35,483 nt of DNA from Ruminococcus sp. (GTDB lineage: Bacteria > Bacillota > Clostridia > Oscillospirales > Acutalibacteraceae): positions 1 through 35,483 of the forward strand of contig JAFTYK010000010.1 in the NCBI GenBank assembly GCA_017464765.1, in the 5' to 3' direction. Below, one piece after another: positions 1,779 through 9,962 of the stretch. Positions within the stretch are counted from its first letter, which is position 1. Each line of letters begins with the position of its first letter. Below the pieces are notes generated by a model. That model had not been told where the DNA came from and made no database searches. It saw only the letters and a program-made list of their open reading frames with translations. The position numbers and the translations under genes are program-made.

Positions 1779-3791
1779 ATGAAAACTTATAAGCGTATCA
1801 TCAGTATAGCCTTAGCTCTGATAATAATGCTGTCTATTCTCCCCTTCGGGTCTATCATCACAAACGGTGCTGCGTACGAGAACACTTACATTAACACAGG
1901 TTGCCAACGACTCGATATTGTAGGGGTAGCCGAAACTCAGATAGGCTACAAAGAAGGACCTAATAACGACACAAAATACGGAACCTGGTACGGTCTTCCT
2001 AACCAACCATGGTGTGCAATGTTTGTTACCTGGTGTGCAAGACAAGCAGGTATTCCTGAAAGCATTCTGAATAAATCTGCGGTTGCTTCAGCCAACCCTT
2101 ATTATTTTAACGTACCTTATTATGACGGGAATACCTATACACCAAAAGCCGGTGACCTTTTCTTCACAAAAAGCTGGTCACACGTTGGTATCGTTTACTA
2201 CACAGACGGTGAATATTTCTACACTATAGAAGGCAATTCCAACACAAACGGTAGCAATGATGGAACCAGCGTTGTTTCTATCCGCAGAAAAATAAGCACT
2301 CACTATTTTGGTGTACCAAAATATCAGAATAATATTAAACTCATCAAATCCACTGCTTATCCTGTTCCTATTACCGCCAGAACAGAAAACACAGGCAAAG
2401 TAACCGTTTATAGCTACCCTGAAGGCAATGCTACCAAGAATATCATAACAAGCAAAAACATCTGCACAATCTCGGAAATATACACTAACGGTTGGTGCAA
2501 GGTCAGCTACACACTAAATACGGGTGCAAAAGTCACAGGCTACGTAAAATCGTCTGCATTTTTTCCTGCTGACTATAAAGTGTTCACAATTTCTGCAAGC
2601 GAGCAAATTCCTACATACTCTGACAGCACTTTAAGCACATCTGTAGCTACGATTGAAACAGAAGAGACTTTTCACGTAATAGGACACAACTCTGCTGCAA
2701 TTCAGATTCTCAGAAAAGCTGAAAACAATAGTTATTCCTCCGAATGGATTCCTGTTTCTGCTATCACCTGTACTATAAACTATGCTTGTGAAGACCCTGC
2801 ACAGCTTATGGAAAGCTCTGTTGCAGGATATCAGGAAAAGTTCACTTTAGCTCCTAATACCTTCACAAAACAAGGCCACACTTTTGAAAAATGGACATCA
2901 TACAGATGCTCCGATGAAACATGGCATATCTTCGGTGCAGGCTGGAAAAACGAAAGTGAAATTGTTTCAAACAATTACGTAAAACATACTTATATGGACG
3001 GATATTCCTCCGCATTGTCTGCGTCATGGATTCGTGGCGGCAAAACCAACGATACTATAACTTTCTATCCAACGTGGACAGCCAATACTCTGAACGTATG
3101 CTATAACGCAAACTCTGCTGACATCAGTTCAAATACATACATTTTAAACAATGACCTTATTTGTACAAAACAAGATGGCATCGGCTTTGCCCAGTCCTGG
3201 ACATACGATGAACCAAAACCAAACGGTTTATTTAACTATACTACTTTCGGTTTGTCAAAGCCAGGCTATGTATTCTTAGGATGGTCAACCACACCTGACG
3301 GCACAACTTACTTTGACCAGAACGATTCTACTGTTATCCCTACAGACCTTACATCAGAAATCAACAACTTAAGTTGCACCATTGTTTTATACGCAGTATG
3401 GGGTGATGAAAATGCTCCAAAACCTACCGAAAAGCCTACTGATATTCCGAATGAAATCCCAACTGATACAGAAACCGAAAAACCAACAGAAGTAGAAACC
3501 ATTCTTCCTACTTTGGAATCCACAACTCCTACTCTTCCTTCCGAAATACCGACACAGGAATCTACCGAAATATCTCCAACTACTCCTACAGAACCTGTAT
3601 TTATTTTGGGAGACATCGATAGCGACTTAGCACTGACAGTCATTGACTCAACTATTATTCAGTGTTTTCTAGCAGGTACTATCACAGTGGATTCATCACA
3701 ATTATCTGTTGCTGATATCGATCAGGACGGGAGTGTTTCTGTAATGGACGCAACATACATTCAACTTTTATTAGCAAATCTTCTTGATTAA
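1779..3791 (+). CDS. Secreted CHAP-domain amidase/peptidase with SH3-like, InlB-type repeats and C-terminal dockerin
   Basis: 670 residues; ATG preceded by AGGAGG (1769-1774). Residues 1-31 form a Sec signal peptide (KR, then a hydrophobic core). Residues ~45-180 are a CHAP domain: catalytic Cys79 in QPWCAMFVTWC, His135 in WSHVGIVYY, acidic/amide partner in IEGN (151-154). Residues ~195-265 look like a bacterial SH3 wall-binding segment. Residues ~335-545 hold two InlB/Flg_new-type beta repeats (GHTFEKWTS; GYVFLGWST followed by LYAVWG). A Thr/Pro/Glu linker (~548-607) leads to a dockerin: GDIDSD...VIDSTIIQ and ADIDQDGSVSVMDATYIQ. Dockerins bind cohesins of cellulosome-like assemblies. CHAP enzymes usually cut peptidoglycan peptide or amide bonds. 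The first dockerin loop departs from consensus (DLALT rather than DGxVN). No cohesin scaffold is in the window. I infer a wall-remodelling enzyme tethered to a surface complex. Confidence 0.9.
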   Translation: MKTYKRIISIALALIIMLSILPFGSIITNGAAYENTYINTGCQRLDIVGVAETQIGYKEGPNNDTKYGTWYGLPNQPWCAMFVTWCARQAGIPESILNKSAVASANPYYFNVPYYDGNTYTPKAGDLFFTKSWSHVGIVYYTDGEYFYTIEGNSNTNGSNDGTSVVSIRRKISTHYFGVPKYQNNIKLIKSTAYPVPITARTENTGKVTVYSYPEGNATKNIITSKNICTISEIYTNGWCKVSYTLNTGAKVTGYVKSSAFFPADYKVFTISASEQIPTYSDSTLSTSVATIETEETFHVIGHNSAAIQILRKAENNSYSSEWIPVSAITCTINYACEDPAQLMESSVAGYQEKFTLAPNTFTKQGHTFEKWTSYRCSDETWHIFGAGWKNESEIVSNNYVKHTYMDGYSSALSASWIRGGKTNDTITFYPTWTANTLNVCYNANSADISSNTYILNNDLICTKQDGIGFAQSWTYDEPKPNGLFNYTTFGLSKPGYVFLGWSTTPDGTTYFDQNDSTVIPTDLTSEINNLSCTIVLYAVWGDENAPKPTEKPTDIPNEIPTDTETEKPTEVETILPTLESTTPTLPSEIPTQESTEISPTTPTEPVFILGDIDSDLALTVIDSTIIQCFLAGTITVDSSQLSVADIDQDGSVSVMDATYIQLLLANLLD

Positions 3792-5701: not shown

Positions 5702-5718
5702 AACTAACATAAACACTA

Positions 5719-5755
5719 AAAGGTTGTCTCATATGAAAGAGGCAACCTTTTTTGT
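5719..5755 (+). terminator. Intrinsic terminator after ribF
   Basis: 12-bp stem AAAGGTTGTCTC / GAGGCAACCTTT (one G-U pair; 5719-5730 with 5739-5750), 8-nt loop, then T-run. Confidence 0.88.
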
Positions 5756-5789
5756 TTTGCTCTAGCTTAAAAAATATTTTTTGCAGAAA

Positions 5790-5816
5790 ATTGCGTATTC
5801 TTATGCAATTTTTTCC
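5790..5816 (+). terminator. Second terminator-like hairpin in the leader of the lysis cassette
   Basis: ATTGCGTA / TATGCAAT (5790-5797 with 5802-5809, one G-U), TTCT loop, then six T. It lies 30 bases before the first cassette start codon. A weak promoter match, TTGTTT (5752-5757), 17 bp, TATTTT (5775-5780), would start RNA just before this hairpin, so it could work as an attenuator. The hairpin is seen; its function is inferred. Confidence 0.5.
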
Positions 5817-5846
5817 ATTTTTTCGCTATAAGTGGGAGGTGTAATT

Positions 5847-7505
5847 TTGATTGTTATAAAAAACGGAATATTGTTCATCGATAGAGAAGATATGTTTATT
5901 GGGCATATCGGTGACAATCTCCACACAGTAAAACAGTTTATAGTCGAAAATGAAACTGACGAAAACTGTACTTACAGGTTATTTCTTTCTTTTGGAAAAG
6001 ATGAAAGAGGAAATGAGATAACCAACCACCTTGTACTCGACAGCAAGGTAGAAAACAGCTCGACAATTCTTAATTGGACTATTTCCACAGACCATATTTT
6101 CAAAAGCGGACTGGTAAAAGCACAGGTAAAAGCTTTCAAAAACGAATACGAGATAATGCACACTACTCATAATTATTTCTTTGTTAACGATTCTGCTGAG
6201 TTTTCCGAAGATTACTCAGAAAAAAACAATGCAGAATTCCTTGAATATGAAAAAGCACTCAACGAGATTAGGGAAAAAATAGCAGCTAATTCTTTTGATT
6301 TGGTACCCAAATCCAGAAGTATCGCAGGATTATCTCTTTCGGAAGATATCCTGAATGATGAGCTTTGTGAGTCGCTTGGTATATTTCCACCAACATACAA
6401 GAGTAAACCACCAGAATCCTTCGATGGCGATGAAAGTCGTTTCTGGGTTGATACCACAGAAAACGACTTGTATTTCTGTATTGGCAGAACGCTCTCTGGT
6501 TATAACTGGATAAAACTGTCTGGTAATGAAGATACAAACGGAAACGATACCGTCGGTATAAAATCAATAACACAGGGATCGCAGTCATCGTATGACGAAG
6601 GTGTTAATACTTTAGAAGTTGTCTTGACAGACGGAACAACAACGTCATTCATCGTCAGAAATGGTAGCAAAGGTGAACAAGGTCCTGCTGGCGAAACAGG
6701 TCCTATCGGTCCGCAAGGTCCACAGGGAGAAGCAGGAAAAGCTGGTGCTAATGGTCAAGACGGAGAAACGCCAATAGTAACTTTAACGGAAGTAACTGGC
6801 GGATATAAAATCACCATTGAAACCGAAGAGAAAACACAACAAGCTATTATCAAGAATGGTACAGATGGCAAGACTCCTGTTGTAGGCATCGACTATTTCA
6901 CAGAAAGCGACAAAGCAGACATCGTTCAAGCGGTTATCGAAAGCTTTGGCGGTAATCCTGTGTCAGGCTATGTTGATGAAGAAAACAACATTATCGTCAC
7001 AGGCAATCTCTCAAATGGTATATACAACATTAAATATGAGCTTGAAGATGGTACGACTATTGATATCGGTGAACTGACATTAACTGATGACGATACCGAA
7101 AAGCCTGCTTACACTAACCTTGCTCAACCAAACGCGGACAATACGACAGATTTTACAATTTGGTGTAATAACGCAAGAGTAGGAAGTGACGGAACTGTTT
7201 CCACCCGAGATGGATACACAGTTACAAACTTCTTTACACTTACTTCAAGAGATGTGCTTAGGGTCAAAAACTTTAAAGTGGAGCGTCTTTGCTTATATGA
7301 TGCCGAGAAAAATCCACTACCAAACGGTGTTGGTGTAGTTGCAGATGTAGCAACTAATGGTTATATCGAGAGTGATTACACATTAACAGATACAGACTTG
7401 ATTTGTACAGCTAAATCAGACACCATCGTTTACACACGTTTGTCAGGTACTTTAACCAATACTGCTAACGATGTAATCATTACAAAAAATGAAGAAATCG
7501 CTTAA
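5847..7505 (+). CDS. Phage baseplate-upper/tail-fibre-like protein with collagen-like repeat
   Basis: 552 residues. TTG start at 5847 is chosen because GGGAGG (5834-5839) sits 7 bases upstream; an in-frame GTG at 5832 would lie upstream of that site. No signal peptide. Residues ~1-130 resemble the N-terminal domain of BppU-type phage baseplate proteins (beta-rich; starts MIVIKNGILFID). A helical, charged stretch follows (~130-165). Residues ~273-308 form about twelve Gly-X-Y triplets (GEQGPAGETGPIGPQGPQ), a collagen-like trimeric stalk. Two beta-rich domains follow, the last (~430-552) possibly a carbohydrate-binding tip. First gene of a five-gene run; 11 bases to the next start. In phages such proteins form the receptor-binding fibre. 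No portal, capsid or tape-measure genes are nearby. Family call moderate; collagen repeat certain. Confidence 0.72.
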   Translation: MIVIKNGILFIDREDMFIGHIGDNLHTVKQFIVENETDENCTYRLFLSFGKDERGNEITNHLVLDSKVENSSTILNWTISTDHIFKSGLVKAQVKAFKNEYEIMHTTHNYFFVNDSAEFSEDYSEKNNAEFLEYEKALNEIREKIAANSFDLVPKSRSIAGLSLSEDILNDELCESLGIFPPTYKSKPPESFDGDESRFWVDTTENDLYFCIGRTLSGYNWIKLSGNEDTNGNDTVGIKSITQGSQSSYDEGVNTLEVVLTDGTTTSFIVRNGSKGEQGPAGETGPIGPQGPQGEAGKAGANGQDGETPIVTLTEVTGGYKITIETEEKTQQAIIKNGTDGKTPVVGIDYFTESDKADIVQAVIESFGGNPVSGYVDEENNIIVTGNLSNGIYNIKYELEDGTTIDIGELTLTDDDTEKPAYTNLAQPNADNTTDFTIWCNNARVGSDGTVSTRDGYTVTNFFTLTSRDVLRVKNFKVERLCLYDAEKNPLPNGVGVVADVATNGYIESDYTLTDTDLICTAKSDTIVYTRLSGTLTNTANDVIITKNEEIA

Positions 7506-7516
7506 GAGGTGACAAT

Positions 7517-8572
7517 ATGAGTTACCAATATAAAGGATTTATACCTGAGAATATTGCTCCAAAAGGTTCAACTAAAATAGGCGTGTATGATGAAAACGGA
7601 AATAGGATGTTTCCTATATCGCTTGGAACACTCACTCCTGTAAAAAAAGAAAAGCTGTTTTCATTCGGTTTAATCTCTGACTTACACGTTACAGCAGAAA
7701 AAACAGCTACATCAACTCACCTTGACAATGCCCTTTCGTATTTTGAAGAGCAGGGCTGTGTCTTTTGTTGTCACGCAGGAGATATGACGAATATCGGCTT
7801 TTGGTACAACAGCACAGATACTGAAATATATACTGGTCAGTTTGAAGAGTACAAGCATATTTGCGAACTGCACCCGAACTTGCCCCTTTACGGTATATGC
7901 GGAAACCACGAAAACTACAACAAGGTTATCACAGAAAACTTAACTGAGCTACATGAATATACAGGTCACAGCTTATATTATACAGTAAAACACAATGATG
8001 AATTATTCGTATTCATCGGTCAACCTAATTCATATCAGACGATAAACCTCGAAGAATTACAATGGTTGTATGAAACTTTAGAAGCTAATCGCAATATAAG
8101 ATGTCACATCTTTGTACATGTATTCCCTCCATCAGACAGTGGAAACACAAAAAACGTGTATACCGCTTATTTCGGGCAATATGCAGATAACGTTGAAAGC
8201 TTACTAAATCACTACAAAAATACGATTTTATATCACGGTCATTCCCACATCAAATTCAAATACCAAGAGCTTGATAAAAGCACGAACTACACAGACAAAA
8301 ACGGATTTTCTTCCATTCATATCCCATCTGTCGGTGCATCACACGATGTTGTGCAGAACGAAGATGGTACGTACAAGAGAGTGCCTGACAACAACTCGAG
8401 TATGGGTTATTTAGTTGATGTGTATGAAGACTGTATAGTGTACAACGGCATAGATTTCAATAAAAACGAGTTTGCCCCAACTGGTGTTTTTAAGGTTGAT
8501 AAACCTATCCAAATTGTCGATGCTGATACCTACACAGATAATACTAACATTGTCGCTTGCGGTAAGGGGTGA
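7517..8572 (+). CDS. Calcineurin-like metallophosphoesterase with phage-tail-like N-terminus
   Basis: 351 residues; GAGGTG upstream of ATG 7517. The metal site of the calcineurin superfamily is complete: Asp55/His57 (SDLH), Asp89 (AGDMTN), Asn130/His131 (GNHEN), His201 (FVHVFP) and His242/His244 (YHGHSH). Residues 1-40 (YKGFIPENIAPKGSTKIGVY) form a separate small segment; such N-termini occur on tail-associated proteins in Clostridia prophages, so I infer a docking or trimer-cap role. No signal peptide. The substrate is unknown: wall phosphodiesters (teichoic acid, phosphorylated capsule) or nucleotides are possible. It sits between the fibre protein and the holin genes, which suggests a depolymerase or phosphodiesterase associated with the tail tip. 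The next gene starts 4 bases after its stop. Confidence 0.85.
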   Translation: MSYQYKGFIPENIAPKGSTKIGVYDENGNRMFPISLGTLTPVKKEKLFSFGLISDLHVTAEKTATSTHLDNALSYFEEQGCVFCCHAGDMTNIGFWYNSTDTEIYTGQFEEYKHICELHPNLPLYGICGNHENYNKVITENLTELHEYTGHSLYYTVKHNDELFVFIGQPNSYQTINLEELQWLYETLEANRNIRCHIFVHVFPPSDSGNTKNVYTAYFGQYADNVESLLNHYKNTILYHGHSHIKFKYQELDKSTNYTDKNGFSSIHIPSVGASHDVVQNEDGTYKRVPDNNSSMGYLVDVYEDCIVYNGIDFNKNEFAPTGVFKVDKPIQIVDADTYTDNTNIVACGKG

Positions 8573-8576
8573 AATT

Positions 8577-8891
8577 ATGGATAATTACATAACCCGTGCC
8601 GAACACAATGAATATGTTAAACGTATGGAAGATGAACACAAACGCCTTAACAATCGCCTGTTAACGGTAGAAAACGCAACAAAAGATATGCAAGAGCTTG
8701 TTAAAAACGTAGGCATTATGGCGACTAATATGGAACACATGGTGGACGAGCAAAGAAGCCAGAGCGAACGACTTCAACGTCTTGAGGAATTACCTCTTAA
8801 CAGCTGGAACACGGTGAAACATGGCGTATATAATGCTATAGGGGCTACTATCGGCGGTGCGATTATTGCGGCTATACTATTCTTTTTGTAA
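8577..8891 (+). CDS. XhlA-like holin-associated coiled-coil membrane protein
   Basis: 104 residues. ATG at 8577 is chosen for the AAGGGGTG just upstream (overlapping the previous stop); a longer in-frame reading from 8472 lies inside the phosphoesterase gene. Residues ~8-75 are charged and helical, with heptad-like spacing (RMEDEHKRLNNRLLTVENAT). Residues ~86-104 form one C-terminal transmembrane helix (IGATIGGAIIAAILFFL). This architecture fits hemolysin XhlA proteins, which assist a holin in Bacillus PBSX-type prophages. The 13-base gap to the holin start contains the holin ribosome binding site. Confidence 0.7.
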   Translation: MDNYITRAEHNEYVKRMEDEHKRLNNRLLTVENATKDMQELVKNVGIMATNMEHMVDEQRSQSERLQRLEELPLNSWNTVKHGVYNAIGATIGGAIIAAILFFL

Positions 8892-8904
8892 AGGAGATTC
8901 TACT

Positions 8905-9180
8905 ATGAAAATTAACCTTAAAGTACGGCTGAAAAACCCTATGTTCTGGGTGGGGATTCTCTCAACTATAGTGCTAACCATACTCGCTGAGCTTGGATTA
9001 CAAGCTCAGGATATAACAACGTGGAAAGCGTTATCAGACGCATTGCTCGAAGCTGTGAAAAACCCTGTTATTATCGTAGCTACGATAACATCGGTGTATA
9101 ATGCTATTGTTGACCCTACTACGAAGGGTTTTTTCGACAGCAGTAATGCCCTCACCTATGAAAAACCGAAAGGAGAATGA
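8905..9180 (+). CDS. Phage holin, phiLC3 family
   Basis: 91 residues; AAGGAG (8891-8896) before ATG 8905; a longer in-frame reading from 8857 overlaps XhlA and has no site. The start MKINLKVRLKNPMFWV, a first membrane helix (~14-30), the middle TTWKALSDALLEAVKNP, a second helix (~52-66) and the ending VDPTTKGFFDSS are characteristic of phiLC3-type holins. Holins form membrane holes that let the endolysin reach peptidoglycan. The stop overlaps the endolysin's ribosome binding region. Confidence 0.92.
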   Translation: MKINLKVRLKNPMFWVGILSTIVLTILAELGLQAQDITTWKALSDALLEAVKNPVIIVATITSVYNAIVDPTTKGFFDSSNALTYEKPKGE

Positions 9181-9182
9181 AA

Positions 9183-9884
9183 TTGGCTTACAAAATTTAT
9201 CTATCGCCATCTAACCAAAGTGCTAACAAATATGCTTCAGGCTCAACAAATGAAATGTCTCAGTGCGATAAAATCGCAGTAGCAGCAGAAAGTGCGCTTA
9301 AAAGATGTGGTTTTTCAGTGAAACTCGGCAAAAGCGGTGACACTATGCAGAATCGTTGCAAAGAATCAGACGCTTTTAATGCGGATATTCACATGCCAAT
9401 CCACACAAACGCCTTCGATGGAAAAACCACAGGTGGTACACTGGTTATGCTCTATAAAAGCTCGACAGAGCATAACAAAGCCGGGAAATGCCTGCTAGAT
9501 GCAGTAGGAAAAATCTCTCCCGGAAAAGACTATACACTCAGATACAGAACTGATTTGTACGAGCTTAACACACCAAACGCAATGTCGCTATATCTTGAAG
9601 TCGAGTTTCACGATACAAAAACAGGTTCCGACTGGATCAGAAACAATATAGAAAACATCGGTGAAGCGATAGCGAAAGGTATGTGCAACTACTTCGGTGT
9701 GAATTATATCGCAAAAAAAGCCAGTACCGACACTGCGCAGACAAAACCTGTAACGCCCCCAACTACAGATAAAAAAACACTCTACTATGTGCAGGTAGGG
9801 GCATTTTCGAACAAAGCTAACGCAACAGCCTTAATTGAAAAGCTGAAAAAGTCAGGCTTTGATGCGATTATAAAAACTAAATAA
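9183..9884 (+). CDS. N-acetylmuramoyl-L-alanine amidase endolysin with partial SPOR domain
   Basis: 233 residues from a TTG at 9183. AGGAG at 9171-9175 is only 1 base from the ATG at 9177 but 7 bases from this TTG, so the TTG is preferred. Residues ~3-175 are an Amidase_3-type zinc amidase of the phage form starting YKIYLSPSNQ, with MPIHTNAF (zinc His) and YLEVEFHD (catalytic Glu) visible; the classical DPGHGG first-His motif is replaced by LSPSNQ, as in related phage lysins. After a Thr/Pro linker (~182-198), residues ~200-233 (YYVQVGAFSNKANATALIEK) match only the first half of a SPOR peptidoglycan-binding domain. The enzyme cuts the bond between muramic acid and the stem peptide. Last gene of the cassette. 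Confidence 0.9.
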   Translation: MAYKIYLSPSNQSANKYASGSTNEMSQCDKIAVAAESALKRCGFSVKLGKSGDTMQNRCKESDAFNADIHMPIHTNAFDGKTTGGTLVMLYKSSTEHNKAGKCLLDAVGKISPGKDYTLRYRTDLYELNTPNAMSLYLEVEFHDTKTGSDWIRNNIENIGEAIAKGMCNYFGVNYIAKKASTDTAQTKPVTPPTTDKKTLYYVQVGAFSNKANATALIEKLKKSGFDAIIKTK

Positions 9885-9920: not shown

Positions 9921-9962
9921 AAAAACGAGGCTGTCTCACTTATTTGTGAGACAGCCTCAATT
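9921..9962. terminator. Strong bidirectional terminator
   Basis: Perfect 13-bp stem GAGGCTGTCTCAC / GTGAGACAGCCTC (9927-9939 with 9946-9958), 6-nt loop. On the minus strand it is followed by GTTTTTT, terminating the LCP gene 5 bases after its stop. On the plus strand it ends the lysis cassette. Confidence 0.92.

Follow-up and report, generated by a model that had tools for sequence, protein, structure and literature searches.

What purpose does an intact phage fibre and lysis cassette serve when it lies alone between ribF and an LCP gene on a bacterial chromosome? This question is raised by a 35,483-nucleotide contig of Ruminococcus sp. (Acutalibacteraceae; assembly GCA_017464765.1, contig JAFTYK010000010.1), hereafter the window, in which five packed open reading frames (ORFs; positions 5847–9884) encode a tail-fibre-like protein, a phosphoesterase, an XhlA-like protein, a holin and an amidase. 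An earlier, sequence-only reading of this DNA had taken the cassette either for a stand-alone export and lysis device or for the tail end of a decayed prophage. Our analysis points to another answer, namely that the cassette probably supplies, as one operon, the adsorption and lysis functions of a phage-derived particle whose genes are dispersed and vertically inherited, and which is most likely a gene transfer agent (GTA). The parts of this system, which are a head-and-baseplate cluster, the fibre (here with a phosphoesterase), the lysis genes and a lone replication gene, are dispersed in the genome and share a leader.

A leader common to dispersed phage-derived genes

Alignment of upstream regions defined the leader as a hairpin with TTGCATA-N4-TATGCAA at its core, followed by two successive U-runs and then the ribosome-binding site. 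In the genome of the window (G000, a 1.5-Mb assembly), the same leader stands ahead of the window cassette (contig C36), of terS (C38) and of a gene encoding a Phg_2220_C replication protein (C33). The core pattern TTGCRTANNNNTATGCAA was found in 119 of the 161 genomes of the genus sample (0–10 forward sites in each genome), and the reversed pattern gave four hits in total; this control is not itself palindromic and is thus generous to the claim, so that gene content is the better test. When 30 leader loci from the core search (L132–L161) were read with their flanks, 27 were found to lead into genes of phage families. These are small-terminase genes (7 loci), replication-type genes (9; two DUF6291 with Phg_2220_C, three DUF6291 alone, three DnaD-like helicase loaders and one assigned by eye), fibres (6; assigned by BLAST or N-terminal resemblance), holins (2), small phage proteins of phrog_4105 (2) and a 157-aa ERCC4-type nuclease of a phage family (1; L141:981–1451, minus strand), which is a possible further member of the regulon. 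The remaining three are a locus of G000 without a phage gene behind it (L157) and two sites inside unrelated genes (L135 and L136).

Two near-identical leader copies without a phage gene behind them (G000:C8:43–60 and G000:C38:28754–28771; L157, L182) both lie at contig ends and precede the same unrelated hairpin; they are possibly one place divided by the assembly. A sixth core match in this genome, on C48, lies inside a gene.

Pairing outside the core was compared between 41 leaders, of which those from related genomes are not independent, and 2000 shuffles. All 41 leaders retain the pair that adjoins the core (AT in 21, GC in 15, GU in 3 and CG in 2; shuffled mean 29.5, maximum 37), and pairing is seen at position 2 in 40 leaders and at position 4 in 39, which four and two of the 2000 shuffles reach, respectively. 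Positions 3 and 5–10 pair no better than shuffles. A single-strand fold of the window leader sets a U-run against the ribosome-binding site. Of the four leaders folded, three beat their shuffles clearly (z −2.6 to −4.6), unlike the fourth (z −0.62). We also considered a plain DNA operator, which appears less likely because the core-adjacent pair changes in a paired way, G-U included. Such a DNA-binding role would nevertheless be compatible with the fixation of the core by the search pattern, with the positions that pair no better than shuffles and with the one poor fold just mentioned.

The head-and-baseplate cluster and the replication gene

The gene behind the leader on C38 is the first of a 17-gene cluster located beside a gerA-type spore-germination gene (by eye). 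The order is terS (the family scan of which was done on the G016 protein), terL, portal (phrog_30703, E = 7e-125), what is probably a protease-scaffold protein, a small virion protein (phrog_4588), a capsid protein (phrog_3922, E = 4e-96), three genes of connector size that lack firm matches, a tail-tube-like gene, one whose product matches LysM weakly, then hub (phrog_177), wedge (phrog_120), baseplate J (E = 1e-56) and Mu Gp48, with a few small genes as well. A 123-aa product of the cluster is similar to a tail tube protein of solved structure (8q01_A, E = 0.00019). A 327-aa product contains an invariant His and an invariant Ser, which we take to be the motif of a prohead protease; its PHROG match is weak (E = 0.0067), a PDB search with its alignment returned nothing, and it is read as a putative prohead protease. 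In TerL, the residues that presumably form the ATPase and nuclease motifs are invariant in four aligned sequences. The lone gene behind the leader on C33 encodes a phage replication protein (Phg_2220_C, E = 6e-29; phrog_428, E = 3e-35).

The sequence-only statement that structural phage genes are lacking thus holds for the window and fails for the genome, in which the head and baseplate genes lie on C38. This bears directly on the proposal of a stand-alone holin/endolysin export device, in which the cassette would release or display the fibre and the phosphoesterase without any particle. Holin-dependent toxin export of the TcdE type is known in clostridia and, like the present cassette, involves a holin and a wall-lytic gene without an adjacent virion cluster; several relatives, too, have fibre and lysis genes without adjacent head genes. 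However, the cargo in the present case would be a virion fibre, BppU, to which the fibre shows a weak match, is a baseplate protein family, and TerL is present in 151 of the 161 genus genomes. Furthermore, the cassette has its leader in common with the capsid, packaging and baseplate cluster and with the replication gene of the same genome. Therefore, an export device is not supported, and we regard it as highly improbable.

Conservation and mode of inheritance

The TerL-positive genomes include 79 of the 81 good ones, and 141 of the 151 contain a single match. In the family, the capsid protein was detected in 229 of 398 genomes (189 of 287 good ones; 82 of 135 genera), 226 of which contain a single match. 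Named genomes contain at least 521 TerL relatives, including those of Ruminococcus sp. FMBCY1, Pseudoruminococcus, Anaeromassilibacillus, Faecalispora and Caproiciproducens; among the best 80 of these loci, many of which end at contig edges, the portal is present in 80 and the capsid in 72. Two cultured carriers of the cluster are Ruminococcus sp. FMBCY1 and Caproiciproducens faecalis.

All 28 genus genomes fetched have the cluster genes that were found (2–17 genes seen) in a single order on the same strand. At least 14 of them are on one stretch in 22 genomes, and the stretches of five end early at a contig edge. The gerA gene adjoins the cluster in 19 genomes, and four of the nine without it have contig edges nearby. 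Protein distances are paced with those of RibF, a housekeeping protein encoded at another place than the cluster: the correlation is 0.86 for TerL (n = 27), 0.88 for the portal (n = 26), 0.82 for the major capsid protein (MCP; n = 25), 0.88 for baseplate J (n = 21) and 0.90 for the chromosomal neighbour GerA (n = 17), and none of 5000 permutations reached any of these values.

The genes of the system appear to evolve under purifying selection, which is strong for the packaging genes. In the clade formed by the nine genus genomes, G000 included, that have a close LCP orthologue (E <= 1e-100), the rough median ratios of nonsynonymous to synonymous differences per site (pN/pS) are 0.19 for MCP, 0.22 for TerL, 0.30 for the portal and 0.39 for baseplate J; the corresponding values for GerA and RibF are 0.15 and 0.39. 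Those of the amidase (0.22), XhlA (0.25) and the holin (0.41) suggest that the lysis genes are likewise under purifying selection.

The cassette and its sites in relatives

All five cassette frames are open, and the family matches agree with those given by the sequence-only reading, as do the flanking genes with their terminator-like hairpins (Table 1). The fibre gene, which starts with TTG and has GGGAGG upstream, encodes a protein matching collagen (E = 5.5e-5) and BppU_N (E = 0.0026), both below the Pfam cut-off, and the phage tail fibre family phrog_5073 (E = 4e-10). The phosphoesterase matches PF00149 (E = 1e-6, above the cut-off) and phrog_1649 (E = 1e-10), the holin PF04531 (E = 2e-25), and the endolysin PF01520 (E = 9e-14) and SPOR (E = 2e-8); the XhlA-like protein matches phrog_937 (E = 7e-8) and reaches the cut-off of no Pfam family. 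The window ORFs (ten proteins searched against Pfam and the others inspected by eye) include no recognisable integrase, repressor, capsid or terminase, and the window contains no tRNA. The ends of the cassette share no direct repeat, so that the suggested attachment sites were not seen. The integrase, repressor and attachment repeats of an active prophage at the ribF–LCP site are thus missing from the ORFs and repeats of the window. Elsewhere in the window, the product of 1779–3791 contains a CHAP domain, a dockerin and, just below the cut-off, a Listeria-Bacteroides repeat, which suggests a wall hydrolase docked to a cellulosome-like scaffold.

Table 1. Features of the cassette and its borders in the window
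Feature	Position	Strand	Remarks
Terminator-like hairpin 3' of ribF	5718..5751	+	
Leader hairpin	5785..5814	+	Core TTGCGTA-N4-TATGCAA at 5791-5808, then U-runs
U-rich strand	5821..5839	+	Predicted pairing with ribosome-binding site GGGAGG 5834-5839
Tail-fibre-like protein	5847..7505	+	BppU-like N-terminus, short collagen stalk, phage-like C-terminus
Calcineurin-type metallophosphoesterase	7517..8572	+	
XhlA-like protein	8577..8891	+	
phiLC3-type holin	8905..9180	+	Phage_holin_1
Endolysin	9177..9884	+	N-acetylmuramoyl-L-alanine amidase (Amidase_3) and SPOR domain
Terminator-like hairpin between cassette and LCP	9926..9959	not assigned	

In the clade, the ribF–LCP interval is empty in G055 (~87 bp) and G025 (~75 bp), contains other genes in G016, G014 and G110, and contains cassette genes in G000, G099 and G115. 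Because the flanks of G011 are on different contigs, this genome was left out. No prophage was found in the interval in any of the eight clade genomes that have it on one contig. In the gap of five clade relatives (L075, L076, L077, L087 and L088), there is a 230–250-aa sugar-transferase-like gene (by eye) that is absent from that of the window.

The fibre and lysis genes of the relatives are mostly located between uvrA and an Mbeg1-like gene. This site contains fibre, XhlA and CHAP protein genes in G016 and G110, XhlA, holin and amidase genes in G055, G025 and G115, and a holin and an amidase gene with an XhlA relic (by eye) in G099. In G014, a fibre gene follows uvrA at a contig end, and in G011, the uvrA-site order is apparently divided over two contigs. 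In G000, no gene lies between uvrA and the Mbeg1-like gene, and the fibres of G055 and G025 are at a third place, different from both sites. Premature stops in relatives, one of the signs that the sequence-only reading had named as contrary to it, are partly in evidence: at the ribF site of G099, an XhlA gene 92% identical to that of the window stands beside a holin gene with a stop (L075:7011–7564), but the holin and the amidase are intact at the uvrA site of the same genome (L115:10012–10842). We read this as a probable reciprocal loss after duplication, with one working lysis set left.

A fibre homologue is present in all nine clade genomes. Together with the selection on the lysis genes and the lack of a prophage at the site, this supports the sequence-only view of the block as maintained and domesticated. 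The fibre tip varies in the clade, with a phosphoesterase gene in G000 and G055 and a GDSL lipase in G110, G099 and G011 (a contig fragment). In G055 and in two IMG/VR viral contigs (46–48% identity), the phosphoesterase adjoins a similar fibre C-terminus. Because both parts co-occur in these viral contigs, the fibre C-terminus/phosphoesterase module was probably exchanged with phages. Neither the cassette DNA nor the phosphoesterase matched any of 50,697 phage records.

Relation to phages

Among the best 80 of at least 584 TerL relatives in IMG/VR (L264–L343), no long virus genome with the head cluster was found. Of these 80, 41 carry the capsid of the system, and none of these 41 contigs exceeds 17,066 bases; one of them has a 651-aa ORF downstream, and the 41 are probably mis-called proviruses. 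The remaining 39 comprise 32 with TerL as the single shared gene and seven that share two to five genes, and the leader was found near terL in two of the 80 contigs.

Nine GenBank phage records matched the capsid, namely five 'Bacteriophage sp.' faecal scaffolds (59–70% identity) and four phages (25–27%). Three of the scaffolds were read: one, a 46.7-kb record, combines a shortened cluster with ribosomal protein genes, the second has a gerA-like gene beside the cluster, and in the third the cluster is at a contig end among chromosomal-looking ORFs (by eye). The 'Bacteriophage sp.' records L364 (MT835508.1) and L365 (MT835952.1), in which ribosomal protein genes, a gerA-like gene and the head cluster are found, look like bacterial chromosome, either misfiled as phage or present as host DNA in a virome. 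In one relative, locus L178 (G101:C1:2035000–2054999) contains a second TerL, 54% identical to the query, and a 1151-aa ORF of tape-measure size; this locus looks like a real prophage, in which case a phage cousin would coexist with the domesticated cluster.

The apparent true prophage at L178, the phage-like gene content of the window and the decay of some copies, such as the G099 holin at the ribF site, would be expected if the cassette were the leftover tail end of one prophage and the other loci the leftovers of others. However, the window frames are intact, the genes are under purifying selection and mostly single-copy, their order is uniform and their divergence RibF-like, and the eight judged clade genomes lack a prophage at ribF–LCP. 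The sequence-only proposal of a decayed prophage also disagrees with the finding of intact phage genes at other chromosomal places that are conserved in relatives, and we consider this origin very unlikely.

Comparison with known systems and a candidate gene transfer agent

PBSX of Bacillus subtilis forms one cluster with sheath and tape measure genes. The system described here resembles PBSX, as its gene content is generally known, in baseplate J, Gp48 and hub, in the XhlA/holin/amidase lysis genes and in a PBSX-type terminase, and differs from it in that the loci are scattered and that the sheath and tape measure of a PBSX-type contractile tail were not seen in the cluster loci, to which this comparison was confined. 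Mu- and PBSX-type baseplate genes and enzymatic fibre tips that differ between relatives (phosphoesterase or GDSL lipase) would also suit a PBSX-like killing particle, for which the dispersed genes would encode a DNA-filled head equipped with a contact device, so that relatives would be killed and would receive no DNA. However, such a particle would be at odds with the lack of a sheath gene in the cluster, and the terminase and the capsid protein, which are better conserved than the other particle proteins compared, are not obviously needed for pure killing; we judge this alternative unlikely. According to the report on the GTAs of Faecalibacterium, a GTA-like or tailocin role has been ascribed to PBSX, and its authors raised the same killing option for their own particles (PMC12946183).

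The closest published system, likened to ours by its described organisation and not by sequence homology, is that pair of GTAs, FpGTA I and II, published in January 2026. As far as that description is available, FpGTA particles are ~40 nm in size and contain 8.4–8.9 kb of DNA, operon I is present in all twelve Faecalibacterium genomes examined there, and GTA-like packaging of host DNA is also recorded for related Ruminococcaceae and Oscillospiraceae, including 4.6-kb packaging in Ruminococcus callidus, with a gene set named only for Faecalibacterium (PMC12946183). Both systems occur in related gut Clostridia, and in both the head operon (TerS, TerL, portal and capsid) is separate from the fibre/holin/endolysin operon. 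FpGTA I differs in being a podovirus-like set of ten ORFs with a scaffold protein, and the FpGTA baseplate is encoded in operon II, whereas our 17-gene cluster holds the baseplate and a hairpin leader is common to the loci. The viriforms RcGTA, BaGTA and BhGTA share with the present system caudoviricete-derived genes, often several loci, and vertical inheritance, and differ in host and gene content; the accessible parts of their descriptions mention no terminator-like leader common to all loci, and they link BaGTA to a phage-derived origin of run-off replication (PMC9662315, PMC11841831). We found no paper on a GTA in Acutalibacteraceae or Ruminococcus bromii in the open-licence literature.

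Of six published features of GTAs, three were tested, and all three were found here: the proteins are caudoviricete-derived, as judged by sequence similarity; they are endogenised at multiple loci (C36, C38 and C33 of G000, and also in relatives); and inheritance is mostly vertical with co-diversification, as the RibF correlations (r 0.82–0.88), the gene order and the conserved neighbour indicate (feature list from PMC9662315). The same source lists mostly random host DNA in particles and delivery to other cells. It also lists a gene set that does not fit completely into the particle; the loci of the present system lie on separate contigs.

Several points weigh against a GTA. The system is described here from its genes, and the particle, its packaging of host DNA and the transfer of that DNA are inferred. 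Family searches of the cluster proteins found no tape measure or sheath gene, and a working injection tail is therefore uncertain; in 71 of the 72 capsid-bearing named chromosomal loci, no ORF >600 aa lies downstream of terL on the same strand in the stretches examined, many of which are short. A replication gene is unusual for a GTA, and none was identified for FpGTA. The core pattern is absent from 42 of the 161 genus genomes; it precedes terS in 18 of 28 genus genomes by pattern, plus G000 (in a neighbouring stretch), and is near terL in 17 of the best 80 named loci, with the same limit of contig edges. TerL is missing from 10 of the 161 genus genomes, two of which are good, and the capsid from 169 of the 398 family genomes. 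The gerA gene is beside the cluster in only 24 of the best 80 of the at least 521 named loci, and Phage_holin_1 is present in only six of the nine clade genomes. G000 is itself 67% complete. Finally, the fibre evolves fast (median pN/pS 0.64), and synonymous sites are near saturation, so that all pN/pS values are rough.

We nevertheless favour a GTA, which might operate as follows. A common signal would let transcription pass the leader hairpin at all sites, and would thereby co-induce the dispersed loci. The terminase would fill small heads with DNA, presumably that of the host, and the baseplate would be fitted with BppU-like fibres and the phosphoesterase, which would bind receptors and process the cell surface. 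XhlA, holin and amidase would then lyse the producing cell, and the particles would deliver host DNA to relatives. A bolder version, which we put forward tentatively, is that an ancient GTA across this family of gut Clostridia is a scattered regulon with one terminator-hairpin leader that a single anti-terminator would release, in which the replication gene would amplify chromosomal DNA prior to packaging, as in the run-off replication of the Bartonella GTA, and the fibre/lysis operon would move between fixed sites with one working set kept.

These results yield a set of candidate GTA genes for one more large group of gut Firmicutes, and the leader offers a sequence tag by which its scattered parts can be found. 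They also make an intact 'stand-alone' phage fibre and lysis cassette explicable, as it would serve a particle encoded elsewhere in the genome.

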